A program made the translations under genes and the position numbers. DNA of 64,000 nucleotides from Vitis vinifera (lineage: Eukaryota; Streptophyta; Magnoliopsida; Vitales; Vitaceae). This document shows, piece by piece, positions 10,146 to 32,860 of the stretch. The notes below the pieces were generated by a model. That model did not search any database and was not told where the DNA came from. It worked only from the letters and a program-made list of their open reading frames with translations. The stretch is from NCBI RefSeq assembly GCF_030704535.1, contig NC_081817.1:883001-947000 (forward strand), given 5' to 3'. Within the stretch, counting starts at the first letter, position 1, and each line of letters begins with the position of its first letter.

Positions 10146-12179
10146 CTACCGCCCAGTTGCTAAGGATCCAGCAGACATCACTCCATAGGATGATGGGTGT
10201 GAGTCAGCTTTGGAGTCCAATGAGCCCACAAAGAAACCTAAACTTGAAGCATCAACCTCGGGGAGTGGGTCAAAGCCACTGAGATATCTTGTAACCTGCT
10301 GCATATTAGGCCTAGCCTGTGGCTCTGGGTCAGAGCAGAGGAGGCCAACCTTCAAAACCAATTCAATCTCCTCCTTCACATATGAATTCCCAAGCTTTCG
10401 ATTTGCAGCTTCAAGTATATGACCCCTCTGATGACACTGTGCCACCCAATCTTGTAGAATCATTTGTTTCCCGGACGAGGCATTGGGGTCTAGAGGCCTC
10501 CTCCCACATGCCACTTCTAGTAGTACTGCCCCAAAGGCGAATACATCGGAGCTTGCGGTGGCCTTTCCAGTGAGGGAGAGCTCCGGTGCTATGTACCCCA
10601 CTGTGCCCACCACATGGGTGGTTCTGGGGTTCTTCCCATGCTCATATAGTTTGGCCAGGCCGAAGTCTCCTAGCCGGGCATTCATATTTGAGTCAAGCAG
10701 GACATTGTTGGCCTTCACATCCCTATGGACAACTACTTGTTCCCATTCTTCATGTAAATATAGGAGGCCTGCAGCAATCTCCTTGAGGATCCTGAACCTC
10801 TGTCCCCAATCCAGGTTCTTGTCTTCTTGAAACAGGAAGGTGTCCAGGCTGCCATTGGACATATAATCATAAACAAGAAGGAGATCGCCTTTTCGCTTAC
10901 ACCAACCTTGGAGATGAACCAAGTGCCTGTGCCTCAGCTTTCCTAGGCTTGCAATCTCTGCAACAAACTCCTTCACTCCCTGCTTGGAATTGTGGGAAAT
11001 TCTCTTTACAGCAACTTCTTCTCTAGTCTTTGGCAGCACCCCCTTGTAGACGGAACCGAACCCCCCTTTGCCGACAATCTGGCTCTCCTTGAAGCCCTTT
11101 GTGGCAATATAAAGGTCTTTGTATCTAAACCTATGGGGGAAGTCCAATTCCCAATCTTCCAGGACCTCAGCTAGCCTTGCCCTTCTTAGCATATACACAG
11201 AAATGGTGATTCCACACAGAAGTAACGCAAGGGTCACCATTGCTGACGATGCTCCAATCTTAATCCCTCTTCTCCCAAGGCCTGGAGATGGGGTTCCATT
11301 TCTTGGGGGAGAAGGGATTTTAGAGAGATCAAGAGGGTCTGCTTCTGTACTACCCATCTTCAAACTCCACCCCAGAATGTAATGAGAGTTAGGATGCATC
11401 TCAGTGGCAGCAGAGAAGCCAACATACATGGACTCTTTAAAGATAGGGGATAAGTCCATGGCTAGGGACAAGAGGGGTTTGCTTGGTTTAGGAAGAGAAG
11501 CAGGGGAAATGGTGACATTGACGATTTTTTGAGCTCCATCATACTCAATCCAAGCTTGGATTGGATTCCCACTCTCCAAAACCACTTCATGAGAGGATTT
11601 GGAGGAGTTATCATAGTATGAAGCTGGCTTAGAAGCATTAGACCTAACAGTATTGATGTCTATACCAACATGGTTATCATTGATATCTCCATACATATCT
11701 CCATAGATAACCAGGGCTTGAAATGTATCGAACTCAACAGCAAACAAATGGTTGGAGAAGTTCCCCATGGTGGCCTCATTAAAAAGACCAAAAAGATTAC
11801 CACGTCCACCACCTGAAAGGTTCTTGGAGGGAGAAACAGTGAAGACAAAACCATGCCCACCAGACCCACCAACATAGCTGGGGACAATGGCAAAGATGAA
11901 GGTTGTGGCAAAGGAGGAAGCTGTGGTGGGGTGTTGGGAATCATGGCTGTTCTTGTTGAGAAAGTGAAATGGGGTGTTGTAGAAGGCATGGCCAGTGAGG
12001 TTGGGTGATGAGTTTGTAAGCCTGAGAGCCCCATTTGGCGTGGTGAGGGAAGCCCCACCAAGGCTTAAGTTGGATGCAGAAGCTTTGAAGCCATTGAAGA
12101 TGAAGCCATAATCAGACTGAGAGTAAGCTTGATTAAGGAGGAGCAGAGAGAAGAGGGGAAAGAGGAGAGTTTTTGCCAT
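10146..12179 (-). CDS. L-type lectin receptor-like kinase, copy 1 (clade IV-like)
   Basis: Intronless gene for a 677-residue plasma-membrane receptor kinase. Residues 1-20 are a signal peptide ending AYSQ; residues 22-275 are a legume-lectin domain with the metal-site words AVEFDT (147-152) and DNHVGIDIN; residues 309-332 are a membrane helix; residues 365-640 are a kinase. The kinase has GKGGFG (370-375), Lys392 in VAVKRI, HRDVKANN with Asp487, and DFG Asp505, so it should be an active RD kinase. The frame is open upstream to 12308, but I chose MAKTLLFPLF because the signal peptide follows it and the other copies share it. Oddities: a four-residue duplication (YGDMYGD) before the metal loop, and ANRKLG where the other copies have ADPKLG. 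Family members sense extracellular ligands or danger signals; the ligand here is unknown. Confidence 0.93.
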   Translation of the reverse strand: MAKTLLFPLFSLLLLNQAYSQSDYGFIFNGFKASASNLSLGGASLTTPNGALRLTNSSPNLTGHAFYNTPFHFLNKNSHDSQHPTTASSFATTFIFAIVPSYVGGSGGHGFVFTVSPSKNLSGGGRGNLFGLFNEATMGNFSNHLFAVEFDTFQALVIYGDMYGDINDNHVGIDINTVRSNASKPASYYDNSSKSSHEVVLESGNPIQAWIEYDGAQKIVNVTISPASLPKPSKPLLSLAMDLSPIFKESMYVGFSAATEMHPNSHYILGWSLKMGSTEADPLDLSKIPSPPRNGTPSPGLGRRGIKIGASSAMVTLALLLCGITISVYMLRRARLAEVLEDWELDFPHRFRYKDLYIATKGFKESQIVGKGGFGSVYKGVLPKTREEVAVKRISHNSKQGVKEFVAEIASLGKLRHRHLVHLQGWCKRKGDLLLVYDYMSNGSLDTFLFQEDKNLDWGQRFRILKEIAAGLLYLHEEWEQVVVHRDVKANNVLLDSNMNARLGDFGLAKLYEHGKNPRTTHVVGTVGYIAPELSLTGKATASSDVFAFGAVLLEVACGRRPLDPNASSGKQMILQDWVAQCHQRGHILEAANRKLGNSYVKEEIELVLKVGLLCSDPEPQARPNMQQVTRYLSGFDPLPEVDASSLGFFVGSLDSKADSHPSSYGVMSAGSLATGR

Positions 12180-12640
12180 TTTAGATGGGTTTTTCTCAAG
12201 GTAGAACTGTAGAAGATAGATTTGTAGGCAAATGTGAGAGGCATACACGTCGTCTTCAGTTTCCTGTGGAGTTGTGGACAAATGTCCATCTCTTCGTACC
12301 ATTTTCAAATCAATAGACCCAGTGTAATTTAATTTGCTTAGGTTGCTAGGGTTAAAGTGGCCAATTTGTAAGGAAAAGCAAAATTTCTAGAAGAAAAAAG
12401 ATGTTCTTTGATTGAAAGTTTTCAAATAACAGGCATTTGTGTTGATGGTGTGACATTAGCCTCCAAGAATTTGTGCAGAGATGATGATCTGGATGCAGAA
12501 TATTTTTGTGCAAGAGAAAAGATTTATTTCGTGTTTGTTTGAAGCCATGGATACAGAATTAGATTTTAGAACCCGTCTAATCATAATTTTGAAAATAGTT
12601 TTTAAAAATAAAATTTTAAGATTAATTCATAAAAATAATT

Positions 12641-13208
12641 GTGTGGACCTCGTATTTCTGTTCATGCGCTTCCACTCGATGACGAACTCGTTTTTTATTT
12701 GAAAAATGATTTATTTTTTAGAAAATAACTTGGAGTCGTCACTTATTTTTGTTTTATTTTTAAAGGGGAAACAAAATAAGAAAGAAAACCCTAAGTGTGA
12801 CCTTATTTTGGAAAAGGTGATCTGTGAAAAACTAAATATGGACTCGAAGGTCAGGTTACTTATTGGGAAGGTACGGTAAAGGCCGTAACACCCCTCTAAG
12901 TCCCTAAAAATAGGTCTCTACTGATGAAATGAGACAAGTATGACAATTGATTGATCAAATATGGATACCGAATGAATATCAATCAAAACAAAATAATCGA
13001 ATGAACAAGAGAAACAAAGAGTGTACCTAATTGATGAGCGGATTTGCTTCATGAAAATAAAGATTAGTAAACAAACATAGAATAATCACATGTGTGTCAT
13101 AGAGTGGAATAAGTCAATCATGTATAGCAATCAATGAGATAATCACATATGTTGGGTCCCTATTAAGACCCACTTTATTTTTGCATGAATTAATTCTGTA
13201 AATTCCAT
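12641..13208 (+). repeat. Left terminal inverted repeat of E1
   Basis: This arm pairs with the reverse complement of 17,676-18,286. It also matches the ends of E2 (24,196 onward and up to 32,860), which makes E1 and E2 members of one family. The conserved core includes a TTGGAGTCGYCACTTATTTT word and the GGGAAGGTACGGT word. Confidence 0.75.
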
Positions 13209-13734
13209 ACTGGGGCATATTTCCTTCTTTTAGCTGTGGAGAGGATTACTTTCTCACAGGCTTGTTGTCGTTTTCATTACTCAGTCGAGGGATATTTATT
13301 CATATCGTTGGCCACAGTTTCGATGATTTTTGACGAGATAAGCCACTAGAGGAGCACAACTTTCGGGTTTTAACTGTCCCACCATTCATGATTCTTTAGT
13401 AGATTGTTGTGTTGAGATGGTGGTAGTTACCCTAACAGCTTATCCTCTTGTGACTCCCCAGTGGATCATTCCTTTGAGACGACGATGGATTCTTCCGGCA
13501 TAACATGTTGAGTTAGAGGCGTCCGACTTATTGTGACACATCATCAAGTCTCGTGATTCAGTCAGATTGGCTGTGAAGCCATATTAACAGTCGATTTGAC
13601 CGTTCCAACTCGTCAGCGGAGCATCTTTTGAGACTCATGAAGTATGTTTTAGACCTTTCCTGTGGATTGAGAGTTGTAGCGGCACGCTACACTGGGGCAT
13701 ATTTTCTCCTCATTATCTCCTCACATTTTCAGTT

Positions 13735-14620
13735 TGGGCGTTCAGAGCCACAATCTCTTCTCAGTTTCGGCGTTCAGAGTCATCATATCTTCTCAGTTTT
13801 GGTGTTCAAAGCCATCATATATTCTTAGTTTCGGCGTTCAAAGTCACCATCTCTTCTCAGTTTTGACGTTTAAAGCCACCATCTTCTCAGTTTGGGCCTT
13901 CAGAACCACCATATCTTCTCATTTTTGGCGTTTAGAGCCATCATCTCTTCTAAGTTTCGGTGTTCAGAGCTACCATCTCTTCTTAGTTTTGGCGTTCAGA
14001 GCCACAATATTCTTAGTTTGGGCATTCAGGGCCACCATCTTTTCTCAGTTTGGGCGTTCAAAGTCACCATCTGCATTATTTGGCATTCAGAGCCACCATC
14101 TCCTCTCAGTCTGGCATTTAGAGTCATCATCTTATCATGATCGAGCATTCGCTGCCACTTTTTTGGCGTTCAAAGCTACATTCATGACGTTCAGGGTCAT
14201 TGTTCACAGTTTGGCGTTCAGAGCCTTTATCTTCTTCAATTTGTTGTTCAAAGTCGCATATCAACCTGGCATTCAAAGCCGCCATTTTCCTTTAGTTCGG
14301 CGTTCGGAGCCACGTTCCTAACATTTAGAGTTGTCTTTCTCTGTTAGTTAGGTGTTCGGAGCCACGTTGCTAGCATTTAGGATTGTCATTTTCTTTTAGT
14401 TTAGTATTCAAAGTCATTCTTACCATTCAGGGCCACTTTCATCAATTTTAGGCGTTCAGAGCCATGTCTTCAATTTGGCATTTAGAACCACCATCTTCTT
14501 CAGTTTGACATTCAGAGTTGTGTCTTCATTTTGACATTCAAGGCCATTGTCTAGCTTGGCATTCGGTGCCACCATCTCCTTTTAGTTTTGGTGTTCAGAA
14601 TCGTTTTTTCCCAGCTTTGT
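13735..14620. repeat. Degenerate 32-33-bp tandem repeat block
   Basis: About 25 diverged copies of a unit built on GGCGTTCAGAGCCACCATCT and CTTCTCAGTTT follow one another, spaced 32-33 bp in the better-preserved first part and less regularly later. Because 33 is a multiple of three, the plus strand stays open for 195 codons (13,734-14,321) with an eleven-residue repeat of the form FGVQSHHLFSV. I regard this as a minisatellite inside E1 rather than a gene: copies drift in length, there is no start context and no family is recognisable. Confidence 0.75.
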
Positions 14621-15940
14621 CATCCATAGTCATGGCTCCTGGCATTCATATTCATTGGCATTGCACATCTTGCCTTCACGATTTTTACGTTCATCCTCAT
14701 TTTCCTCACCTCGTTACCTTGTGCTTATCGCTTGTTCATCACGTTCTTCTAGACTTCCCATTCCCTTGCACATGACATAGTTCATTGAGTTCATGGCACA
14801 TATTTTGATCATGTTATTGGGGCACCCTACACTTAGCATCCTCATGTAGTTCACATAGGGCAATCCCCTTTGGACGCATTCTTTCCTGTACTCGAAGGTG
14901 GTTCAACTGCTACTCAACTTTGACATCGATCTTCGAGTCACTTTTGGAGACATCTTAGAGTGTCTGGGTCCATAACACAACTTTAGATGCATTCTAAGAG
15001 CTACCATTTTTTTAGGATTTTAGAGCCCCTTTTGTTCTTTGTCAGTTTGAACAAGTTTGTGTTCTACTTGTGTACCTTTGGGGGTCTTTCTTTTTCTTTG
15101 GTAGAGTTCACTCTATTCTACTCACTATTCACACTTTCTTTTCACTCTAGTATTCATATTCTTTGCACTCGTGAACTCTACCGAAGATGGGTATATTTGT
15201 AGACCTTTGTAGGACCGTGGGTTTTTTTTCTCAAACCCGGGAAGAGCTGGCAACTTGTTTTTGGAGTGGGGGCCAATTTCCGAAGGAGTCAAGCTACATG
15301 GACGTGTGGCTAAGGGACATTACCACCTTGTTAGGTGGTGGTTGAGGATGGTCATATTTGCTAAACCAGGAGCAAGTGAAGACATAGGGGAGGAAGAAAA
15401 ACAGAGGAAATAGGAAAAAAAAAACAGAGCAAGCTTTTTGGTGGTGGGAAATATATAGAAAAAAAAAACGGAACTGAGGAAAGGGTGGTGAGTCTGCGGA
15501 TATCCCAAGAGAGAGCAAAAGCAGAGGACTTTGAGGTACGTTGGTTGTGATTTCCTTGCTCATTTTTGCTAGAGAGGAGCTCTACCAGGTGCGAGCATTG
15601 TGGATCTTTATTGTTCATCTTTCTGATTACATTGTTCTTCATGCATTTTTCTTGTTATTTTTTTTAGCTTTCATTTGCTACTTGGATGTGACTACTCTGC
15701 TATTCTCTCATTTTCTTTGATTTCGTTTGGGGCTACCATGCGCATGGGTTCATCCAAATCATGTCAATGTTCTCTGTTTATCCCATGTTCATGGCCCATG
15801 AATTCACATATAAAATAAGGCTCCATAGGTTTTTTTTTTTTTTTTTTTTCTTTCTCTGTTTCTTCCTTGGGGACATGAGAAACTTCTTCTCCTTCTTTTT
15901 GTGGGACTGGTCTCGGCTCGGAGGGATGTGGGGAGGTTTT
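14621..15940. other. Interior of E1 between repeat block and captured homeobox
   Basis: No intact gene. The part from about 15,200 to 15,760 is rich in purines and pyrimidine runs and contains short open frames with low-complexity translations. A T-run at 15,831-15,850 and the sequence up to 15,950 may be captured leader or 5' untranslated sequence of the HD-ZIP IV fragment that follows, since the recognisable protein similarity starts just after it. That origin is inference. Confidence 0.4.
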
Positions 15941-15954
15941 AAGAGAGAGGGAGT

Positions 15955-16395
15955 TGTAGGAAGAGCTAGTCACAAGCTTGAGAGAGAAGATGAGCATGAG
16001 AGCAGATCTGGAACTAATAACATGGACGGTGCTTCTGGGGATGATCAGGATGCTATCAACAACCCACCAAGGAAGAAGAGATACCACCGACACACTCCTC
16101 GGCAAATCCAAGAACTTGAAGCCCTATTCAAGGAGTGTCTTCATCCTGATGAAAAGCAAATGTTGGAACTCAACAAAAGGCTTTGCTTGGAGACTAGGCA
16201 AGTGAAATTCTAGTTCCAAAATCATCGTACCCAGATGAAGACCCGATTAGAACGACATGAGAACTCAATTCTTAAGCAAGAAAAATGATAAACTTTAGGC
16301 TAAAAACATGTCAATAAAGGATGCTATGAGGAACCCAATTTGCACCAACTGTGGTGGTCCGGTAATTATTGGTGACATTTCTGTAAAGGAGGCAG
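15955..16395 (+). pseudogene. Captured HD-ZIP class IV homeobox fragment (ANL2/HDG-like)
   Basis: The plus strand encodes an N-terminal part of an HD-ZIP IV transcription factor: an acidic lead ([20 protein letters not shown]), then the homeodomain beginning [21 protein letters not shown]. The frame hits TAG at 16,212-16,214, exactly where the family has the invariant Trp of recognition helix 3 (QVKFWFQN). Similarity continues through FQNHRTQMKT, LERHENSIL, and then, after small changes, MSIKDAMRNPICTNCGGP and IIGDIS. The START domain is missing. Such factors control epidermal cell identity; this fragment cannot make one. It lies inside E1 and joins directly to a second, unrelated fragment. 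Confidence 0.85.
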
Positions 16396-16454
16396 AATCT
16401 TTTTCTAGATGTCAAAAGCTTCACATACCTTTGAATAATAACCTTTGCCGTAAT

Positions 16455-16660
16455 GAAATTGGTCAGTCCGAGAATATTCGAATCCAAACCCGGTATCAAC
16501 AGGGTTGAAACTTTCTTATGAGGAAGATGAGCACAACTCTTCTATTACTTTCGCATGTGATATCATGACCGCCGCACTCCCTGTTATTTCATCTCTTGGT
16601 GATAATCTGAAGCTTGAGGTAGAAAAGGTTGAAAAAAGAGAAGAGGCGGTTCTTTGCATT
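16455..16660 (+). pseudogene. Captured BOI-related / S-RNase-binding-type E3 ligase fragment
   Basis: One plus-strand frame reads NPNPVSTGLKLSYEEDEHNS, then a variable stretch, then ALPVISSLGDNLKLEVEKVE. Plant BOI-related RING ligases carry the same order, (V)STGLRLSY.DDE.NSS followed by SLGDNL..E, upstream of their coiled coil and C-terminal RING. Coiled coil and RING are absent here, and stops lie just upstream in this frame. The family attribution comes from memory of the family pattern, so it is good but not certain. Together with the HD-ZIP IV piece it makes E1 a chimera of two genes. Confidence 0.65.
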
Positions 16661-16679
16661 GTCACTAGGGTCGTTTTTT

Positions 16680-16945
16680 TCACTACTCAAACATCTTCCC
16701 ATTCTTTCTCATCATATGCACCCATCATACCTATTTTTTCTCACATTTTCCTCCACTCAAACATCTTCATATTCTCTCTCATACATATATAGCCATCATA
16801 CCTATTTATCTCACATTTTTCCTCCACTCAAACATCTTCTCATTCTGTCTCATACGTATGCACTCACCAAACCCATTCTTTATTTATTTTTTCTTTCTCT
16901 CACTATTTCCTCCACTTAAATATCTTCCAACTCTCTTTCATACCC
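16680..16945. repeat. Short tandem repeat of about 70-80 bp
   Basis: Three to four diverged units contain the words CTCAAACATCTTC, ATTCTNTCTCAT and CATCATACCTAT in the same order. Overlapping open frames here are translations of the repeat and not genes. Confidence 0.6.
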
Positions 16946-17009
16946 GTGCAACTTGCATTTCCATTTTATTTCTTCATATTTTAACATCAAAGTTTAATGT
17001 TCCAAAATT

Positions 17010-17480
17010 TCAATTTTTAAATTTAATTTTCAAAACTCTAATTCTCAATTAATTTCCAAAATTTCAATTCTTAAATTTAATTTTTAAAACTCCAATTTTC
17101 AATTAATTTCCAAAATTCCAATTCTTAAATTTAATTTCCAAAATTCCATTCCCTAAATTTAATTTCCAAAATTCCATTCCCTAAATTTAATTTCCAAAAT
17201 TCCAATTCTCAAATAATTTCCAAAATTCCAATTTCTTTCAAACTTAATTTCCAAGATTCCAATTCTTAAATTTAATTTCCAAAATTCCATTTCTTAAATT
17301 TAATTTTCAAAACTCCAATTCTCACAAAATTCCAATTTCTTTCAAATTTAATTTCAAAAATTCTAATCCTTAAATTTAATTTTCAAAACTCCAATTTTCA
17401 AATATTTTTTTTTAAGATTTCAATTTTTAAATAATTTTCAAAATTCCAATTTTCTTCAAATAATTTTAAATCCACTCCAG
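17010..17480. repeat. Degenerate 27-28-bp AT-rich tandem repeat
   Basis: About fifteen copies of a unit close to AATTTCCAAAATTCCAATTC and CTTAAATTT follow one another with small length changes. It ends just before the inner end of the right E1 inverted repeat. Confidence 0.7.
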
Positions 17481-17675
17481 TTTTCTAATAATTTTAAGTC
17501 CTCAACTTTTGTCCTTCATTAGGGTTTTAGGTCACCAAAAATCCGGATTTTGATAAACTTGCTACTTTTCCTTATGGGTAAGCACTTCCACAAATTTCCT
17601 TTGATTTTAAAATAATTTTTCTTTTTTTTCGATTTTTAAATAAAAATGAATATGATTCTCATATCTCTAGAAATA

Positions 17676-18286
17676 ATGGAATTTATGAGATTAATTCACG
17701 CAAAATCAATCGGGCTTTGGTGGGGGCCCAACATCCATAACATTTCTTCAAAAATAATTCAAGTGAATCGCATGATTGATATAATTTGATTTTGATTGGT
17801 TTTGTGTGAAATATTTTACATTTATCATTGTGCACTAACTCTGTTTCATGATAGCGCTTTATTATTTGTTGCTAAAGTACGCTCCTATTCCTACTTCATT
17901 TATTTATTCGTTCTCATGCTCAATTTGTTTTATTATTTGATCATTTCATTGGTATCTATTGATCTCCTTATTAATTGTCACACTTGTTTCACCTTATTTA
18001 GTAGAGACCTTATTATAAGGCTTAGAAGGGTGCTACGGCTCACCACTGTACCTTCCCAATAGGTAACCTGACCCTCGAACCCAAACTCGGTTTTCCACAA
18101 ACTTATTTTTTCTTCAGGAGTGACACTTAGTGTTTTTCTTTCTTATTTTGTTTTTTCCTTAAAAAATATTAAAATAAGTGGCGACTCCAAGTCTTTTTCT
18201 AAAAATCAAATTTTCATAAATAAATTAAAAAAAAAAGAGTTTCGCCATTGAATGAGAAAGCATCGAGCAAAATACATGGTCTACGC
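17676..18286 (-). repeat. Right terminal inverted repeat of E1
   Basis: Reverse complement of this stretch matches 12,641-13,208. It carries the family words GTACCTTCCCAATAGGTAACC and GTGGCGACTCCAAGTC, also present in the right arm of E2. The arm is immediately followed by sequence of segment B that belongs to the interior of the hAT element. Confidence 0.75.
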
Positions 18287-18476
18287 AATGTTTTTAGTAT
18301 TTTTGTTATTTAATTTTTCATATTATAAATTCTTCTTTTCTTTTATTAGTCTTTTTTTTTTCTTTTATTGAATGATACCAACATTACCATTTTTAAAATA
18401 TGAAAATTTATTTATAATTATTATAATACTCAAACTTTTTATTCCCTTCACACCAAATTTTTTGGCTCCACCGCTA
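18287..18476. mobile_element. Right-hand stub of the hAT element, segment B
   Basis: About 190 bp of the right end of the hAT element remains, ending TTTTGGCTCCACCGCTA and followed by the family flank CTTTCAAT at 18,477-18,484. The left part and left flank are gone, replaced by the right end of E1. Confidence 0.8.
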
Positions 18477-23026: not shown

Positions 23027-24469
23027 TTTAGATGGTTTTTCTCAAGGGTAGAAGACAGATTTGTAGGCAAATGTGAGAGGCATACACGTCGTCTTCAGTT
23101 TCCTGTAGAGTTGTGGACAAATGTCCATCTCTTCGTACCATTTTTAAATCAATAGACCCACTTTAATTTAATTTGCTTAGGTTGCTAGGGTTAAAGTGGC
23201 CAATTTGTAAGGAAAAGCAAAATTTCTAGAAGAAAAAAGATGTTCTTTGATTCAAAATTTTCAAATAACATGCATTTGTGTTGATGGTGTGAAATTAGCC
23301 TCTGAGAATTTGTGCAGAGATGATGATATGCATGCAGAATATTTTTGTGCAAGAGAAAAGATTTATTTCATGTTTGTTTGAAGAAGGGGCTACAGATTCA
23401 GATTTTAGAACCTGTCTAATCATAATTTTGAAAATAGATTTTAAAAATAAAATTTTAAAATTAATTTATAAAAATAGTTGTTAATCATTTTAAAAAATAA
23501 GAGTGTTTGATATTATGATTTAAATACAATTTTTTGTTTAACAAAAATCTATTTTTAAATATTTGACCGTTATTTTCTGAAAACAATTTTTAAAAGTAAA
23601 ATAAAATAAAGAATAATTTTTAGATAACAAAATAGTTGATCATGTCTTTTTAAAAACAAAAAAAAAAAAAAATGGGCATGTTTCATCATATTTTTTTAAA
23701 CTTGATTTTAAAAACTATTTTTAATTCAAATAATTTTCTTTTTTTTAAAAAAAAGAACAACTTTAAAAAAATATAACTAAACAACCCCAAAATTCCTTTT
23801 AAGAGCTTATTTATAAGAAATAAATTTTTTTAAATTATTTTCAGTGAAATCATAGTGCATATAACGCAAGAACTGTACTTTCAATTATCTTATATAACAT
23901 ATTAAAAAAACATTAATATTTTAAGTATGTTCTCAAAAATCACCTTATTTTCACAAATAGATGGCAAAAAAAATATTTTTAGTTCAAAATTTATCAAATA
24001 TTTATTGAAAGTTGGAAAATTGTTTCCAAAACAATTTTTAAAACTAATTTTCCAAAGTTTGGAATTCTTCTTTTACATAGACATATAAAATAGAAATATT
24101 ATTGAAATTATAATCCAACCTAAAATTAAATTAGAAGAATCTTAAAATTCTGAAAAAAAAAAAAAAAGGAATTATTATTTATTTAGCTTTCTTATGTGTC
24201 GACCCGTATTTTGCTATCTATGTTCTCATGCAACTTGTTTTTCTATTTGGTGAAAATTTGATTTTTTGAAAAAGACTTGGAATTACAACTTCTTTATTTG
24301 GAAAAAAGATGTCAGCAAAATCCAAATCTGAATCCGGGGTCAAGTTACTTATTAGGAAGGTACGGTGGTGAGTCGTAGCACCCTCAAAGCCCCCATATAC
24401 ATACGGTCTTTACTAAACAAATTAAAAGAATTGTGATAATTAATTAATTAATCATGGTATAGACCCCCT

Positions 24470-24837
24470 CAGCTGGGGGCATTGGCTGGTTTTTATTTTT
24501 ATTCATTTTTTTTTCTTTTCTTCTTCTTTTCTGCTTTCTTTATCCACCCGAGGACGGCTGGAAGTGAAAGGAGGGAAAATGAGTTATCCTTAGGCTGCTG
24601 TAAGGGACAGGGGGCGAACAGTATTTGAGCAGCTGAAGAGGACGAGAAGTAGGCGGGAAAAAAGGAAGAGAGCTGGGCGGGGGGATTTGAGTGGGAGTGG
24701 TATGTTTGGAGGGAGAGGAATATAGCTAGACGGTTTTCATTAGTTTCATGGGCATTAGAGGTGGATTTTAAGGCGTCTGAAGCTGAACAGGGCTTTAGGG
24801 GAGAAGGGTATTCTCAGGTATGTATGAATGTAACAGG
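24470..24837. other. E2 interior, left part: possible captured 5' leader
   Basis: This stretch is not AT-rich like its surroundings and starts with a CT-rich run, followed by purine-rich sequence and a good splice-donor-like site, TCTCAGGTATGTATG, near 24,814. The sequence on the far side of the Gypsy element is T-rich and intron-like. The pair resembles a plant 5' untranslated exon and its intron, so E2 may also carry captured gene sequence. No protein similarity supports it, and the source gene is unknown. Confidence 0.3.
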
Positions 24838-24842
24838 TTCAT

Positions 24843-25391
24843 TGATACGTTCTTCCTGCAAAATGACCAGTTAGCACAAGGGCACTCTTCGAGCGAGTGT
24901 CAGCTCCAATATCTCCAGAACGAAGAAGGGAGAAAACAGAGAAAAGGTTGAGCAGAAAAAGGAAGAATAAGGAAAAGAGAGAAAGTTCAGATCCAAAATC
25001 TCATAGCCTCCATCATGCAGACCTCTCCCGAGAGTTTTATGCCTTCTCTTGGGAAAATCAAAACCAAAGCGACACAACCGTCTAACAGAATTGGTTACAA
25101 CCAGAAATAGTAAATTGCAGGAAAAAAATAAAAAAATAAAAAAACAAACCAAAAGATAAAACCAGAGCTTCACGTCCCTTTCCTTACACGACGTAGTCGT
25201 TCATCCAAATTGGTGGTTTTCTGGGCCTGCGTGGGCCTGAGTTGGACTGGGCCTTGGAATGCTTGGTGACTAGCTAAGTGGCAGCATTGGGCTCTTCCAT
25301 GGGAGGTACTTTAGGTGTATTGGGCTCTTCCACAACGGATGCTTCAGTTGTCTGTACATGTTGCTGTAAAGGAATTGCCACGAATGTATCA
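24843..25391 (-). repeat. 3' LTR of the Gypsy element
   Basis: 549 bp, TGATACG...GTATCA on the plus strand, nearly identical to the other LTR. The integrase frame runs into it and stops at 25,274. It is preceded on the minus strand by a purine-rich tract. Confidence 0.95.
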
Positions 25392-26735
25392 TTCCCCACT
25401 CCATGAAAATCGACCTTGTCCTCAAGGTGGTAATCAGGGTAAAGTCTGCAGAATGCGACAAAATCTTCCCAGGTTGCGTTCTCAGGGTCACTGGCGGTCC
25501 ACTGCACCAGAATTTGTTGGACTTCTTTTCCCTGTCGGAGAATCGTTCGAACAGCACAAACAGCTGCTAGTACTAATAGAGGATGGATGCCCATAGTTTC
25601 GGTCGGGAGTGGATAGACTTCTTCAGGAACGGGTCCTCGAAAAGGCTTAAAGGCAGATATGTGAAACATGGGATGGATCTTGCAGCCACTGGGTAATGCT
25701 AAACGATAAGCGACGGCCCCAATCCGCTCAAGCACTTGGTACGGTCCATAATACCGTTTGGCCAATTTTTGGTAGGGACGATGAGCTGCGGTAGTTTGCC
25801 GATACGGTTGTAAGCGAACAAGAACCATATCTCCTACTTCAAGCTGCAGGTCGCGCCGATGTGCATTGGATTTTTGCGTCATCCGGTGTTGAGCTTGACG
25901 TAGATTCTCCTTCAAGGTACGGAGCAAGGCATCGCGCTCCACAAGTGCCTCATCGAGGGCTTGGATTGAAGTAGAGCCCTGGGTATAAGCCGGAATGATC
26001 GGAGGGGGACGTCCGAATAAGGCCTTAAAAGGAGTCATTTTTAGTCCACTATGATAACTGGAATTATAACAAAATTCAGCCCATCCGAGAAAAGAGATCC
26101 ACGAGTGTGGCTTCTCATTCGTGAATGCACGTAAGTACTGCTCTAGTCCCCGATTGACGACTTCGGACTGCCCGTCCGTTTGTGGGTGGTAAGTCGTACT
26201 ATGGCGCAAGGATGTCCCGCTAAGCTGAAAGAGTGTCTGCCAAAATTTACTCATGAAGACAGGGTCGCGATCGGATATGATCGAACTCGGAAACCCATGA
26301 ATCTTGACCACAATTGTCGCAAAAACTTCCCCTGATTTGGCGGCTGTGAACTGAGTTGGCAAAGCCTCGAAGTGCGCTGACTTGGTGAGACGGTCGACCA
26401 CCACCATGATAACTGTAAAATTGCAGGAAGGGGGTAGGTTGGTAATGAAGTCCATGGTGACTTCGTCTCATACCAACGAAGGAACTGGGAGTGGCTGGAG
26501 GAGTCCAGCTAGTGCTTGGGTTGAATACTTCGTCTGTTGACAAACTAAGCATGCTGAAACATATTGCTCCACATTTGCCCGCATGCGTGGCCAATAAAAA
26601 AAAAGTAGCCAAGCGAACCAAGGTACGTTTTACTCCACCATGACCCGCGAATGGGGTAGCATGAAACTCGTGCAACAGTAGGGCCTTTAAGGAAGAGTTG
26701 GGGCTGATGTAGTATCTATGCTTGAAGAACAACAA
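25274..26735 (-). pseudogene. Gypsy integrase and chromodomain region
   Basis: The open frame 25,274-26,455 begins MDFITNLPPS and carries the integrase core, including VVDRLTKSAHF, SDRDPVF and HPQTDGQSE (catalytic Asp and Asp; the Glu lies in the last motif). The C-terminal part has QLEVGDMVLVRLQPYR, YYGPYQVLERIG and a chromodomain-like segment with QILVQW and NATWED. Upstream, the zinc-binding HHCC region ([20 protein letters not shown]) is in another frame near 26,690, and a TGA stands where the family has Trp just before MDFI. The region is therefore broken at its N-terminal end. Integrase inserts the cDNA; the chromodomain biases target choice in this lineage. Confidence 0.85.
25392..25402 (-). 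promoter_or_regulatory. Polypurine tract of the Gypsy element
   Basis: On the minus strand the bases GGAGTGGGGAA lie directly against the 3' LTR, the position and composition of a plus-strand priming site in LTR retrotransposons. Confidence 0.7.
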
Positions 26736-26822
26736 GCCATCATGAAGGGAATAGTCCGAAGAGAGGGAACCCGTCGTGAACTGTTGATGAAGGGAGACTA
26801 AGTCCGGGAATGTAGAGTTTTC

Positions 26823-28514
26823 CTAACGAAGGGTGGTCAAAAACTCTAAGGAGGGGTGGCTCGAGAACGACAGACATGAAGGCGCGGATAGCGCAGGCTG
26901 TTCCAATTCCTCTTCATGGACCCGAGACAAAGCGTCCGCAGCTTGATTAGCACGCCCCGGCTTATATTCGATTCGAAAATGGTAGCCCAACAACTTCCGG
27001 ATATAAATCTGTTGATCTGGAGTTTGTACCACCTGCTACAATAATTCTTTCATGCTTTTGTGATCCGTTCGGATAATGAAAAACCTGCCCAATAGGTATT
27101 GGCGCCATTTGTGTACTGCCTCAGCAATGGCGTGAAGTTCCTTGAGGTATGTTGATGAAGCTTGTAGGCGCGGACCCAATTTCTTGCTGAAATAAGAGAT
27201 TGGGTGACCTGCTTGCATGAGAACGGCGCCTATTCCCACATTAGACGCGTCAGTTTCGATCACGAAGGTCTCATTGAAATCTGGCAACCGTAAAACTGGC
27301 GCTGCAACCATTGCACTTTTCAGGGCATCAAAAGCCACGGTAACCTCCGGAGTCCAATTAAAAGCGTCTTTGCGTAACAAATCCGTGAGCGGAGCCGCGA
27401 TTGAAGCATAACTGTGAATGAACCACCGATAATAGCCAGTGAGGCCGAGGAAAACTCGGAGGTGCTTCAAGGTGCAGGGTATGGGCCACTTCATCATGGC
27501 ATCGAGTTTTTGCGGATCGGCACGTACCCCGCCAGCAGAAACTATGTGTCCCAGATACTCAATTGTCTCCTGGCAAAAGTGGCATTTGGAGAGCTTGACG
27601 TAAAAACTACCCTTGTGAAGGCAAGTCAAAACCTGCTCCAGATGAGTAACATGCTTAGAAATAATAGTGTTGTAAACCAGAATATCGTAAAAAAAAAAAA
27701 CGATTACAAACTTGCGCAAGAATGCAGCAAACAACTGGTTCATTGTGGCTTGAAAAGTGGATGGGGCATTCAACAGCCCAAAAGGCATGACAAGAAATTC
27801 GTAGTGGCCCTCATGAGTCCGAAACGCTGTTTTATAGACGTCCCTATTATGTACCCTGATTTGGTGGTAACCAGCCCGGAGGTCCAGTTTGCTAAAAATA
27901 GTAGCGCCTCCTAATTCGTCCAAAAGCTCGTCAATGGTTGGAATCGGGAATTTATCTTTGATCGTTACTGCATTGAGAGCGCGGTAATCGACACAAAAGC
28001 GATAGGTACCGTCCTTTTTTTTTTAACCAATAACACCGGAGAGGAGAAAGGACTTTGACTTGGCCAAATTATACCTTGATCAAGCATCTCTCGAATTAAT
28101 TTTTCCATCTCATTTTTTTTGGAAGTGTGGATATCGATAAGGACAAACATTCACTGGCTTTGAATTAGGAATGAGATGGATCTTGTGGTCAATGGTGCAG
28201 TGCGGGGGAAGGCCTGTTGGCGGAAGGAACAGGTCACGAAATTTCTGCAAAGTAGTAGAGATTGCCACGAGCAAGGTATTGGGAAAAATAAGTGTATTCT
28301 CTTTGGTAACCAAAGAGGCAGTTTTCAACTCTTCTGTCGCTAGTGGCTGCAAGACAAACATGCTGTGGACATTTGAACTGTGGATCAGTGCCTGAAATTG
28401 ATTAAAAGAAATCAAGATAGAGGACTGGTGCAAATCCCCATGGAGAATGATCGGACGCCCTTCCCAACAAAACTCCATTGACAGGGCTGTATAATCATGG
28501 GCAACACGACCCAA
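26823..28514 (-). pseudogene. Gypsy reverse transcriptase and RNase H region
   Basis: Reverse transcriptase pieces are [20 protein letters not shown], then [11 protein letters not shown], and, in the long frame 27,036-27,923, SKLDLRAGYHQI and VMPFGLLNAP. Where the catalytic double aspartate should be, the sequence reads VFFFYDIL, so one Asp is lost and the run of F codons is one longer. RNase H follows with FVIETDASNVGIGAVL and FIIRTDHKSMKELL, ending at a TAG (27,033-27,035), after which the same frame continues PDQQIYIRKLLGY. Frame changes near 28,115 and 28,020, and the altered catalytic motif near 27,690, all sit at A/T homopolymers. Confidence 0.85.
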
Positions 28515-29959
28515 TTATTGCAGCCATTGAATACCAAGAACGACATCAGGTCCTTCAATTGGCAGGATAAAAAGATTTAAGGGAAACACATTCCCTTGCA
28601 ACATCAAAGCAACTTGGGGGCAAGTGTGCTGGCAAATTAAATAATCTCCATTGCCAATGTAAACTCGAAATTTAGGTGTTGGCTGAATAGGGAGGCCCAA
28701 ACGCTCCACCAGAGCCGGTTTAATAAAATTGTGAGTACTACCACTGTCGATGAGCACATGGAAGCGATGAGACCCAAACTCACCAACTAAACGAAGGGAG
28801 CGGGGATTACCTTGGCCTGCCAAGGCATTGAGGCTGGAAATGTCGCTCGTGACCAAGTCCTCGGCTGGTTCGGTTGCCACGCCATCATCATCTGTATCCT
28901 CATCAATATCATCCGTCCCTAAAAGAAGCAAAAATTTGTTGCGACAACGATGATTAGCAGAATATTTTTTGTCACAATTATAGCATAATCCCTTTTCGCG
29001 CTTCTCTCGTAACTCATTAGGGGTGAGGCGACGAATAGGTAAAGCAGGGGCCGGAGCTATGGGTGGTGTTTGCTTATGCCCGACCGTTGTCGGTGGTGAG
29101 GCCGAAGCGGGGGTGGCTGTCTGAAACGGGCCCGTCGGAACGGTCGTTACAGCATGTTGTCTAGTGGAACTCTCCGTGGACGTGTTGGCAGCATTGGAAG
29201 AGGACCACTTATGCCAAGGGCGAGCGCTCTACTTGATCTCCTCACAGCGAGTTTCATAGGCTCGAGCTAAGGCAAAAGCCTCCATCAACGTGGACGGCCG
29301 TGAGAAAAGTAGCTCACGACGAATATCCGATTTCAAGCCGGTAATGAAAAAACTAATCAACAACGGCTCAAAAATTCCCATGACTTTATTCATCAGGTCC
29401 TCGAAGGCCGATTGAAATTCCGCCACAATCGAAGTCTGAGTAAGCTTAGAGAGATTACCTTGATGGTCTTCATAGAGGGAAGCTCTGAAACGGTGCTTCA
29501 GACTGAGTAAAAATGCCTTCCACGAAGACAACAGATTATTGGCCTTCATCCATTGATACCAACCTGCTACCGGACCTTCCATATGGAAGGAGACAATCCG
29601 CAGCCGGAGCGGCTCAGGTATTCCATGAAAATAAAAAAATTCCTCAACGCGAAATACCCACCCGTGTGGATCGGTTCCGTTAAACTTCGGAATCTTCATT
29701 TTCATAAAACGTAAGGCAGTGGCTAACTCATTATCTCCAGCACCCATCTCAGTAACAGGCGGCGGGCCGGTGGAGGACCCAGAAGACCCGCAGACGATCC
29801 CGACGATCCATGAAACTGAGAACGGAACTCCTCCAGTCGCGAATCCACAGTAGACATATATTGTTGGAGTATTTGATGAAACGACATCGTTTGGCTCTCA
29901 AATTGAGCTTCAAATTGATCCTGCAAAGCCTTAACCGCTAAAAGCACATCCAAGTCCGC
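28515..29959 (-). pseudogene. Gypsy gag and protease region
   Basis: Gag probably starts at MADLDVLLAVKALQDQ (29,959); the frame shifts by about 29,790 and continues through MKIPKFNGTDPHGWVFRVEE, the usual plant Gypsy capsid word. A TAG at 29,229-29,231 interrupts it. The same frame resumes with a CCHC-like knuckle (CYNCDKKYSANHRC, near 28,960) and then the retropepsin site LIDSGSTHNF (near 28,750) and VVLGIQWL. A TAA at 28,512-28,514 follows. Gag would package the RNA and the protease cut the polyprotein; with these breaks neither can be made at full length. Confidence 0.85.
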
Positions 29960-29969
29960 CATCAAAGGA

Positions 29970-29987
29970 GTCGATGAAAGCACCAAT
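29970..29987 (-). promoter_or_regulatory. Likely primer-binding site of the Gypsy element
   Basis: On the minus strand ATTGGTGCTTTCATCGAC directly follows the end of the 5' LTR, the position of the tRNA primer site. I could not match it to a specific tRNA with confidence. Confidence 0.45.
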
Positions 29988-30536
29988 TGATACGTTCTTC
30001 CTGCAAAATGACCGGTTAGCACAAGGGCACTCTTCGAGCGAGTGTCAGCTCCAATATCTCCAGAACGAAGAAGGGAGAAAACAGAGAAAAGGTTGAGCAG
30101 AAAAAGGAAGAATAAGGAAAAGAGAGAAAGTTCAGATCTAAAATCTCATAGCCTCCATCATGCAGACCTCTCCCGAGAGTTTTATGCCTTCTCTTGGGAA
30201 AATCAAAACCAAAGCGACACAACCGTCTAACAGAATTGGTTACAACCAGAAATAGTAAATTGCAGGAAAAAAATAAAAAAATAAAAAAACAAACCAAAAG
30301 ATAAAACCGGAGCTTCACGTCCCTTTCCTTACACGACGTAGTCGTTCATCCAAGTTGGTGGTTTTCTGGGCCTGCGTGGGCCTGAGTTGGACTGGGCCTT
30401 GGAATGCTTGGTGACTAGCTGAGTGGCAGCATTGGGCTCTTCCGTGGGAGGTACTTTAGGTGTATTGGGCTCTTCCACAACGGATGCTTCAGTTGTCTGT
30501 ACATGTTGCTGTAAAGGGATGGCCACGAATGTATCA
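29988..30536 (-). repeat. 5' LTR of the Gypsy element
   Basis: 549 bp, nearly identical to 24,843-25,391 and bounded by the same TGATACG and GTATCA ends. Promoter and polyadenylation signals are expected here, but I did not identify them. It is immediately followed by the TTCAT target duplication at 30,537-30,541. Confidence 0.95.
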
Positions 30537-30541
30537 TTCAT

Positions 30542-31290
30542 TGTTAGATTTAGATCCTTGCTATCCCTCTGCATTTTTTTTCTTGTTGATATTTTGGATA
30601 TTTGTTGTTTTGCTTGGGGTGGATTGTTGCTTGTTGAGATATAACCTTGAATTCATGTTTGTCATCATCCATCTTAATATGCTCTGTTTCTATTGTGATT
30701 GCGGAATGCTCGAGAAACCCCTCCAATATTTACACTTGATGTTGTTTTTCTCACCTAATGAGAAGATTCACTGATGATTCATGATGTGAAGCTTCCTTTG
30801 AGAACCTTACTATTTGTTTTCTGCTGTGCTCTGTTCCATGTTTTTTTCTTCTTTGTTTTAGCTACTCTTTGTCCTTGGACCGTGTTCAATGCATAGATGG
30901 TGGGAGAGGAGCAACTCTTGGTTTGAGGAAAGCTTCCTAGAAAAACGGGCAGAGAAAACTTTTCGGGGATGGTCCGAAATAGAGAAGAAAGAAGAAATGA
31001 GTTTTTCTGGCGCTTAAGAGGATTCCGAAAATTTTTCGAAGTTGGTTGGTGCTAGTGCTGACTGGTGCTGGCTGGTGTTGGCTGGTGTTGGCTGCTGGCT
31101 GCCGCCGCGGGGAGGTGGTGATCGTGCTGAAGCCAGGCGGGAAGGGAAGCTAGGAAGAAGATGAAGATTTGGTTTGGGCTTGAGATAAGGCACTAGGCCC
31201 AATTTTGTGTTGGTTTTGGCTTTGGGCTTGGGTTTGAATTCGGAGCCCAGACCCAAGCCTATGCTGAAGATGAAGCCCAAAGCCCCATTA
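30542..31290. other. E2 interior, right part
   Basis: The first 350 bp are T-rich and intron-like. A short tandem block of GCTGGTGTTG-type units lies at about 31,050-31,105, and 31,165-31,280 is rich in GGGCTTGGG and GGCCCA words. Open frames such as 31,014-31,280 on the minus strand are low in complexity. No gene is supported. Confidence 0.5.
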
Positions 31291-31603
31291 TTATTATTAT
31301 TATTATTATGCTAGTTTGGGCTTGGGTTTGGGCTTATGGACTTGGGTTTATGATATTATCACTATTATCATTATTATTATTATTACTATTATTATTATTA
31401 TTACCATAGACATTATTATTATTAATTCAATTTTCCAAATCTTATTATTATTATTGTTATTATTGTTATTGTGATTGTCATTATTGTCATTGAAAATCTA
31501 TATTCTCGCAGTTTAATCTCCTAAAGTTCATCTCTTATTATTATTATTTCAAACTCTCAAAATCTTATTATTATTATTATTATTAATTCAAACTTTCAAA
31601 ATC

Positions 31604-31653
<50 letters not shown>

Positions 31654-32020
31654 TCAAACTCTCAAAATCTTATTATTATTATTATTATTAATTCAAATTT
31701 TCAAAATCTTATTGTTATTATTATTAATTCAAACTTTCAAAACCTTATTATTATTATTATCATTAATTAGAACTCTCGAAATCTTATTATTATTATTATT
31801 ATTATTATTAATTCAAACTTTCAAAATCTTATCATTATTATTATTAATTCAAACTTTCGAAATCTTATTATTATTATTATTATTAATTCATACTTTCAAA
31901 ACCTTATTATTATTATTATTACTATTAATTCAAATTTTCGAAATCTTATTGTTATTATTATTATTATTATTATCATTAATTTAAACTTTCAAAATCTTAT
32001 TATTACTATTATTACAAATT
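31286..32020. repeat. TTA trinucleotide array with a higher-order unit
   Basis: Runs of (TTA)n alternate with the spacer AATTCAAACTTTCAAAATC, giving a second-level repeat of roughly 45-75 bp over more than 700 bp. The longest pure TTA run is near 31,604-31,651. Because the unit is three bases, one strand stays open and encodes runs of Leu and Ile, which is not a gene. Confidence 0.85.
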
Positions 32021-32247
32021 CAACTTTCAAAAGTCTATGGTCTCGCAGTTCAATTTCATAAAGTTCGTTTCTCATTTTCTTTAACAAATTTCAATTTAAT
32101 TACCGGAGCTCTAATATTTTAAATTTAATTCCAAATACTCAAATTTTCAAATAAGCTCCAAAGAATCCAATTTTCACTCAAACAGTTTTAATTCTACTTC
32201 GGCTCTCAAATAAACCTTTTGTTTTTCTTGGTTCTACATAAGCATGA

Positions 32248-32860
32248 ATGGAATTTGTGAGACTAATTCGTGCAAGATAGATCGAGCTTTGGTGGGAGCC
32301 CGACACATATGATTTTATGATCGATTGATTGATTGACTGATTTAATTGTCATGCGTGATTGATTTGTTCTGCTTTGTGATATGTATATATTCATCCCATA
32401 TAGATTTACTAACCCCCCTCTTGATAGCGCATATTGGTTCGCCACCTAGGTATGTATTTTCTCGCATCATGGTCACTCCTTGTGCTTGTTTTAATTCTCA
32501 TACGTGCATGATCGATTCGAGTATTCATTGTTTTTCTCATCAATTGTCACATCAGCTTCATTTTATTAGTAGAGACCCGACTTTAGGGACTTAGAGGGGT
32601 GCTATGGTCTTTACCGTACCTTCCCGATAAGTAACCTGACCCCCGAGCCCGATCCGGTTTTTCGTAAGATCACCTTTTCCAAAATAAGGAGTCGCACTTA
32701 GGGTTTTCTTTCTTATTTTGTTTACCCTTTTAAAAATAAAACAAAAATAAGTGGCGACTCCAAGTCATTTTCAAATAATCAATAAAAAATCAATTTTTCA
32801 AATAAAAATCGAGCTCACCATCGAGTGGAAAACGCATGAACCAAAATGCGGGGTCCACAC
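32248..32860 (-). repeat. Right terminal inverted repeat of E2
   Basis: Matches, in the same orientation, the right arm of E1 (17,676-18,286): GGCTTTGGTGGG-type words, GTACCTTCCCGATAAGTAACC, and GTGGCGACTCCAAGTC, ending GGGGTCCACAC. Confidence 0.75.

Follow-up and report, generated by a model that had tools for sequence, protein, structure and literature searches.

The 64,000-nucleotide stretch of the grapevine (Vitis vinifera) genome considered here (the window; G000:C13:883,001-947,000) holds, at positions 12,641 to 18,286, a sequence that a preliminary description had presented as a Pack-type DNA transposon, with fragments of two unrelated regulatory genes side by side between long terminal inverted repeats (TIRs). 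This sequence is very probably not a transposon of that kind and represents the 3' end of an abundant long terminal repeat (LTR) retrotransposon that has lost its 5' part. It is also highly probable that its LTR carries a chain of RNA-derived pieces, consisting of a long interspersed nuclear element (LINE) fragment, a linker, part of an HD-ZIP IV message, part of a BOI-like message and a block shared across the family, brought together by template switching during reverse transcription. A complete sister copy on contig C9 has the anatomy of an LTR element and bears the cargo in both of its LTRs, the HD-ZIP piece has lost its introns, and other LTRs of the family hold other intron-free cargos. 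As the pieces are intron-free, mostly sense, directly joined and present in both LTRs, repeated template switching onto host mRNAs would be the simplest account of them. The genome searched for relatives and parents was the window's own (495.6 Mb in 21 contigs).

LTR anatomy in the window and in a complete sister copy

At 15,183-15,197 (plus strand), the window contains a degenerate polypurine tract (PPT; GAAGATGGGTATATT, versus GAAGAGGGGCATATT in C9a), which is immediately followed, at 15,198, by the sequence TGTAGACC. A PPT is likewise seen in the C14b, C9a and L060 copies, and the homology of each of these three with the window stops at 15,205. Positions 15,198-18,287 therefore constitute the 3' LTR (plus strand), which extends from TGTAGACC to approximately GGTCTACGCA and ends within 18,285-18,287, in alignment with other LTR ends of the family; positions 13,209-15,197 constitute the 3' part of the retrotransposon interior (plus strand), which is collinear with C14b and partly with C9a. 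Its minisatellite, an array of ~32-bp repeats (TTTGGCGTTCAGAGCC...; repeat families D2-D4 and D10-D12), occupies ~13,692-14,600, with one frame open over 213 codons. The LTR itself contains, on the plus strand, A+T-rich repeats of ~28 bp shared with the sibling copies (16,995-17,480) and a conserved 3' end (17,676-18,287), the latter corresponding to the right TIR of the preliminary description.

The sister copy on C9 supplies the missing half of this anatomy. Its two LTRs (21,311,090-21,313,869 and 21,323,893-21,326,672) lie in direct orientation, are each 2,780 bp long and differ by one mismatch; they start with TGTAGACC and end with GGGGTCCACA, with a primer-binding site (PBS) directly downstream of the first, a PPT directly upstream of the second, and GGTGG, a 5-bp target duplication, at both outer sides. 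Cargo is present in each of the two LTRs: the LINE piece and the linker, then 248 bp from the start of the HD-ZIP piece and 42 bp from the end of the BOI piece. A deletion of ~340 bp (16,223-16,577 in window coordinates) across the HD-ZIP/BOI join is common to the siblings on C9, C10 and C14, so that, among the loci found by the cargo search, the whole cassette is kept by the window copy only. At a rate of 1.3e-8 per site per year, a single LTR difference in 2,780 bp dates the C9 insertion to about 14,000 years ago, which shows that the cargo-bearing lineage moved recently. By eye, the interior of the C9 copy contains a gag-like remnant merged with a pol-end-like piece; apart from this, no pol-like open reading frame (ORF) of at least 90 aa was seen there, a reading by which shorter broken pieces could be missed; the sister has thus probably been mobilised by enzymes supplied by relatives. 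Placement in the Tat/Ogre group of Ty3/gypsy elements was considered; neither the gag-like nor the pol-end-like ORF matched a gag or pol Pfam model above cut-off, and a comparison of the gag-like ORF with plasmids (tblastn) gave no match. The PBS presumably resembles the tRNA-Arg type. Such a PBS is not confined to one clade in the account given by PMC6317226.

The inverted repeats reported by the preliminary description do exist (12,641-12,980 versus 17,945-18,287, 73-75% identity); what they delimit is another matter. Over compared stretches of 291-349 bp, the identity of the left arm is 86-89% with six other LTR ends, 80-84% with five sibling ends, including the C9 pair, and 75% with the right arm, which itself shows 73-76% identity to all 11 other LTR ends. 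The left arm is closer to other LTR ends than to its supposed partner, and the arms are therefore not a TIR pair; judged by these alignments, they are best read as two LTR 3' ends lying head to head instead of as matching termini of a single element. Of the two, the left is an inverted-orientation LTR 3' end (12,642-13,208, minus strand) truncated at ~13,208, an inner edge set by the inverted repeat I7 (13,179-13,208) and by C14b homology beginning at 13,207. A search with this arm returned 3,955 first-look candidates, 40 of which were scored, and an exact 26-base core occurs 264 times in the genome, versus 0 for its reversed control. The twelve termini fetched have a common end close to TGTGGACCCCG or, read in the other direction, end with GGGGTCCACA or nearly so, and three of them are directly followed by a TGGCGACTCCGCTGGGG-like sequence (at most four differences allowed) that has the appearance of a tRNA-type PBS.

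No matching 9-bp or 5-bp duplication was found by eye at the outer flanks of the two arms (12,642 and 18,285-18,287). For a 9-bp duplication this is a weak test, old Mutator-like elements (MULEs) often being described without one (PMC2528002). A Pack-MULE, that is, a Mutator-like DNA transposon with long TIRs that copied the two gene pieces from genomic DNA, would explain why host-gene pieces are enclosed by long inverted repeats, and MULEs containing gene pieces have been described in grapevine, with 9-bp duplications reported in only a subset (PMC2528002); however, the arms are unmatched, the introns are absent, and the ends are LTR ends accompanied by a PBS, a PPT and, in the sister, a 5-bp duplication. 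Already refuted for the C9 sister by its paired LTRs, this explanation can be given almost no credence.

A second inverted-orientation pair of LTR 3' ends was noticed by eye at 24,197-32,859; its left fragment adjoins an LTR-start-like sequence at ~24,460, and minus-strand ORFs resembling retrotransposon pol are nested between the two ends. One idea, that of a molecule bounded on either side by LTR 3' ends, was rejected, as neither inverted pair has a matching duplication by eye, and the left arms were for the same reason treated as separate LTR fragments. The occurrence of two such pairs in one window remains odd. Just left of the first inverted fragment, at 10,146-12,386, lies a minus-strand open frame of 746 aa that by eye is lectin receptor kinase-like.

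Host messages in the window LTR

A search of the genome with positions 15,900-16,700 yielded 27 matches from 20 scored candidates and located a parent for each of the two host-gene pieces. The names HD-ZIP IV and BOI-like follow the preliminary description and what is presumed of these gene families. The HD-ZIP IV piece, a frame-broken cDNA fragment at 15,983-16,391 (plus strand; previously placed at 15,955-16,395), contains a recognizable homeodomain (Pfam, E 5e-10) and matches C15:19,151,225-19,151,835 in three collinear blocks of 90-94% identity. These blocks are separated in the parent by 92 and 101 bp; base-level alignment identifies both gaps as GT..AG introns, and both are exactly absent from the window piece, at 16,122|16,123 and 16,240|16,241, the identity to the spliced parent being 91.4% over 419 bp. 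Introns were thus not retained when the parent was compared with the piece, and the insert must therefore derive from RNA and was not copied from genomic DNA. The BOI-like E3 ligase piece, short, without a Pfam match and located at 16,388-16,612 (plus strand) instead of 16,455-16,660, corresponds to a single block of 90% identity at C17:10,269,482-10,269,710; it falls within one parental exon, and the question of splicing therefore cannot be put for it. The two pieces do lie side by side on the plus strand as first described, yet the 60-80 bp said to separate them are not there: the join is direct, with four bases (GGAG) in common. As the parents reside on different chromosomes (C15 and C17) and are not one gene, the capture and fusion of pieces of two unrelated host genes proposed from the outset is borne out. 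Exact runs shared by the window and the parents number six for the HD-ZIP piece (21-44 nt) and three for the BOI-like piece (22-45 nt), so that small RNAs arising from the cargo could possibly act on the parent genes.

Intron-free cargo would likewise result if the element had captured, at the DNA level, older processed retrocopies of the host genes. Against this, among the 27 matches from 20 scored candidates, no intron-free HD-ZIP/BOI copy was found outside the loci of the LTR family; of two further HD-ZIP loci, that on C14 is an LTR of the family and that on C16 is a gene with introns. Retrocopy capture is accordingly regarded as very improbable.

The 5' side of the chain is occupied by a fragment of a LINE ORF1 region (15,843-15,940, plus strand), 92% identical to L032, a multi-copy sequence the ORF of which contains the Pfam domain DUF4283 (E 1.5e-15); LINE homology ends at exactly 15,940 in nine of ten non-sibling loci. 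It is followed by the 42-bp linker common to the siblings (15,941-15,982, no strand assigned), then by the two host-gene pieces and, from a sharp left edge at 16,612, by a block (16,612-16,680, plus strand) that is common to 15 loci with differing cargo before the edge. The sense orientation of the LINE piece at this place in the window lineage is what a LINE-made chimera would predict, the LINE enzyme having joined LINE RNA and host mRNAs into a cDNA that landed in the LTR and was then carried along. However, no LINE piece is seen beside the cargos of C14b or L050-L060, the joins showed no noticeable poly(A) tract, and a LINE insertion would strike one LTR, when the C9 sister has the cargo in both; such an origin is unlikely. 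The shared block was tried as a further host-gene piece and rejected, no parent having been found for it.

Cargos across the LTR family

The 16,612 block allows LTRs of the same family to be sorted by what stands in front of it: HD-ZIP/BOI cargo in five of the 15 loci (the window, C9 twice, C10 and C14), a prenyltransferase-like piece in two, RGTB-like and PPR-like pieces in seven, and a PPR-like end only in one (L053). The prenyltransferase-like cargo finishes with 17 bp from the very end of the BOI piece and matches C8:22,058,108-22,059,212, with two introns absent in the part aligned, the first of them with a 2-bp slip in L050; it is VTE2-like by eye, its Pfam UbiA value being only E 0.53. 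The splicing of the RGTB and PPR pieces was dropped as a question, the parents being indistinguishable from element copies. The C14b LTR (~L015:2,170-7,393) holds, at L015:4,506-5,235, 730 bp of a second HD-ZIP IV gene, located on C16, which it matches in four blocks of 89.5-93% identity; three intron-sized gaps are absent from the cargo, and the two of them that were aligned base by base are GT..AG introns. This second piece is an independent capture, and two of the few captures examined therefore come from one gene class. In the window, in both C9 LTRs and in C14b, the cargo lies between LTR start and LTR end, not in the interior.

A survey in which LTR ends were taken by end similarity only, regardless of cargo, covered six of the eight minus-strand ends among the twelve termini (two C8 copies were left out), with 3.8-3.9 kb examined upstream of each end. 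At least one host-gene fragment with tool support was present in all six stretches: a RING domain in L076; katanin-like and kinesin-like pieces in L077; GatB in L078; a PRORP-type PPR, a NAC domain and a weak alpha/beta-hydrolase (E 0.0014) in L079; eIF3L-type Paf67 in L080; and sterol reductase, copper ATPase and GMP synthase in L081. Two or more fragments thus occur in three of the six loci (L077, L079 and L081); a second ORF in L080 was left uncounted, its GMP_synt_C value (E 0.0083) falling below the cut-off. In L081, one open frame of 267 codons (1,337-2,137) joins the copper-ATPase and GMP-synthase pieces. The katanin-like piece of L077, named by eye, has a parent on C10 in which the match is split into five blocks by four gaps of 86-177 bp, as judged from block positions, and the kinesin-like piece, also named by eye, has a parent on C7 with one extra gap. 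A position inside the LTR is shown, among the survey loci, only for L077, the katanin-like cargo recurring on C17 upstream of an LTR end with a PBS, and it is supported for L079 and L080, the ends of which are followed by a PBS.

With respect to the LTR, 16 of the 17 host fragments are in sense orientation, as is the LINE piece. The sense fragments comprise the first and second HD-ZIP, BOI-like, prenyltransferase-like, RGTB-like (Pfam Prenyltrans, E 2.9e-17), PPR E-motif (weak, E 0.0028), katanin-like, kinesin-like, RING, GatB, PRORP, alpha/beta-hydrolase, eIF3L-type, sterol reductase, copper ATPase and GMP synthase pieces. This count bears on the possibility that double-strand breaks in LTRs were patched with cDNA or other DNA, replication later spreading the insert to both LTRs. 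Patch repair would account for intron-free pieces, for joins at microhomologies and even for an antisense piece; yet it predicts no sense excess, and it would require many patchings of one family, in which three LTR groups with different cargo share the 16,612 edge. It is therefore considered improbable.

By template switching, the enzyme engaged in reverse transcription would leave the element RNA for host mRNAs sharing its particle and later return, the jumps falling at short identities inside the region of the RNA from which the LTR is made. This one stretch gives rise to both LTRs of a new copy, so that an insert in it would be doubled and then inherited by every later copy, and further switches could add or replace pieces; the shared 16,612 edge with differing cargo before it fits such repeated replacement.

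Several points weigh against this explanation. The window copy itself has a single LTR with a PPT upstream, the 5' part of the element being absent. No parent was found for the shared block, and the G+A-rich linker is weakly similar, in antisense, to the HD-ZIP gene region on C16 (E 1.6e-7). None of the six survey loci yielded an LTR start, so that a place inside the LTR is no more than likely for the cargo of L076, L078 and L081. The NAC piece of L079 is antisense, which is unexpected under simple sense-strand switching. The fragments were picked by reading ORFs by eye, with first-pass limits of 60 and 90 aa for the two strands; when, for the six survey loci only, the minus strand was read again down to 60 aa, one antisense piece (NAC) was added. 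Finally, the survey covers a single LTR family.

The broader proposal, according to which the LTR is the family's capture organ and the LTR bodies of many lineages are rebuilt, through one template switch onto host mRNA after another, from chains of mostly sense, spliced host messages, stands about an even chance of being right. If true, the thousands of LTR ends in the genome would archive the mRNAs of the cells in which the element was copied, and small RNAs directed at many genes might arise from them genome-wide. HD-ZIP IV genes are regulators of the epidermal layer, and the independent capture of two of them may then point to the tissue in which the element was active.

Comparison with known capture systems

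Most gene capture in plants is attributed to Pack-MULEs, Helitrons and LTR elements that took up a single gene. Uptake of several spliced messages by the LTR itself would explain how cargo comes to be doubled and inherited, and its junctions would make template switching in plant particles readable. Pipelines that mask LTRs or discard copies without introns could overlook such cargo; an animal Pack-TIR study describes dropping intron-free copies (PMC8277862). Pack-MULEs and other Pack-TYPE elements, class II elements of grapevine included, resemble the present family in that host-gene pieces are captured, fused and amplified; in contrast, they are DNA elements with TIRs, the grapevine captures being described as containing introns as well as exons, whereas the pieces here are RNA-derived and LTR-borne (PMC2528002).

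Closer parallels are found among LTR elements, although a search of open-licence literature found no published description of host genes being captured serially within LTRs. The maize retroelement Bs1 reportedly carries its host-gene pieces in the element interior. It is an LTR element with pieces of three host genes according to a review (PMC13317346) and is thus similar in carrying and spreading several host-gene pieces; the difference is that the grapevine pieces sit within the LTR, occur twice in the C9 sister, once per LTR, and vary by lineage within one abundant family. Captured gene fragments are also reported in maize LTR elements at large (425 intact elements, at least 189 captures; PMC2774510), which likewise hold host-gene fragments, while two or three genes per LTR neighbourhood are repeatedly seen here. 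Template switching in plants is itself on record in the same 2026 review, which cites a sequence of unknown source in Veju and Wis-2 sequence in the BARE-1 LTR (PMC13317346). In the latter case, that of BARE-2, abnormal template switching altered the LTR itself, as proposed here; the donor was another retrotransposon, whereas the donors in the grapevine family are spliced host mRNAs (PMC13317346 for BARE-2). RNA capture by LTR elements is known, and it is the serial capture of several genes inside an LTR that looks new.

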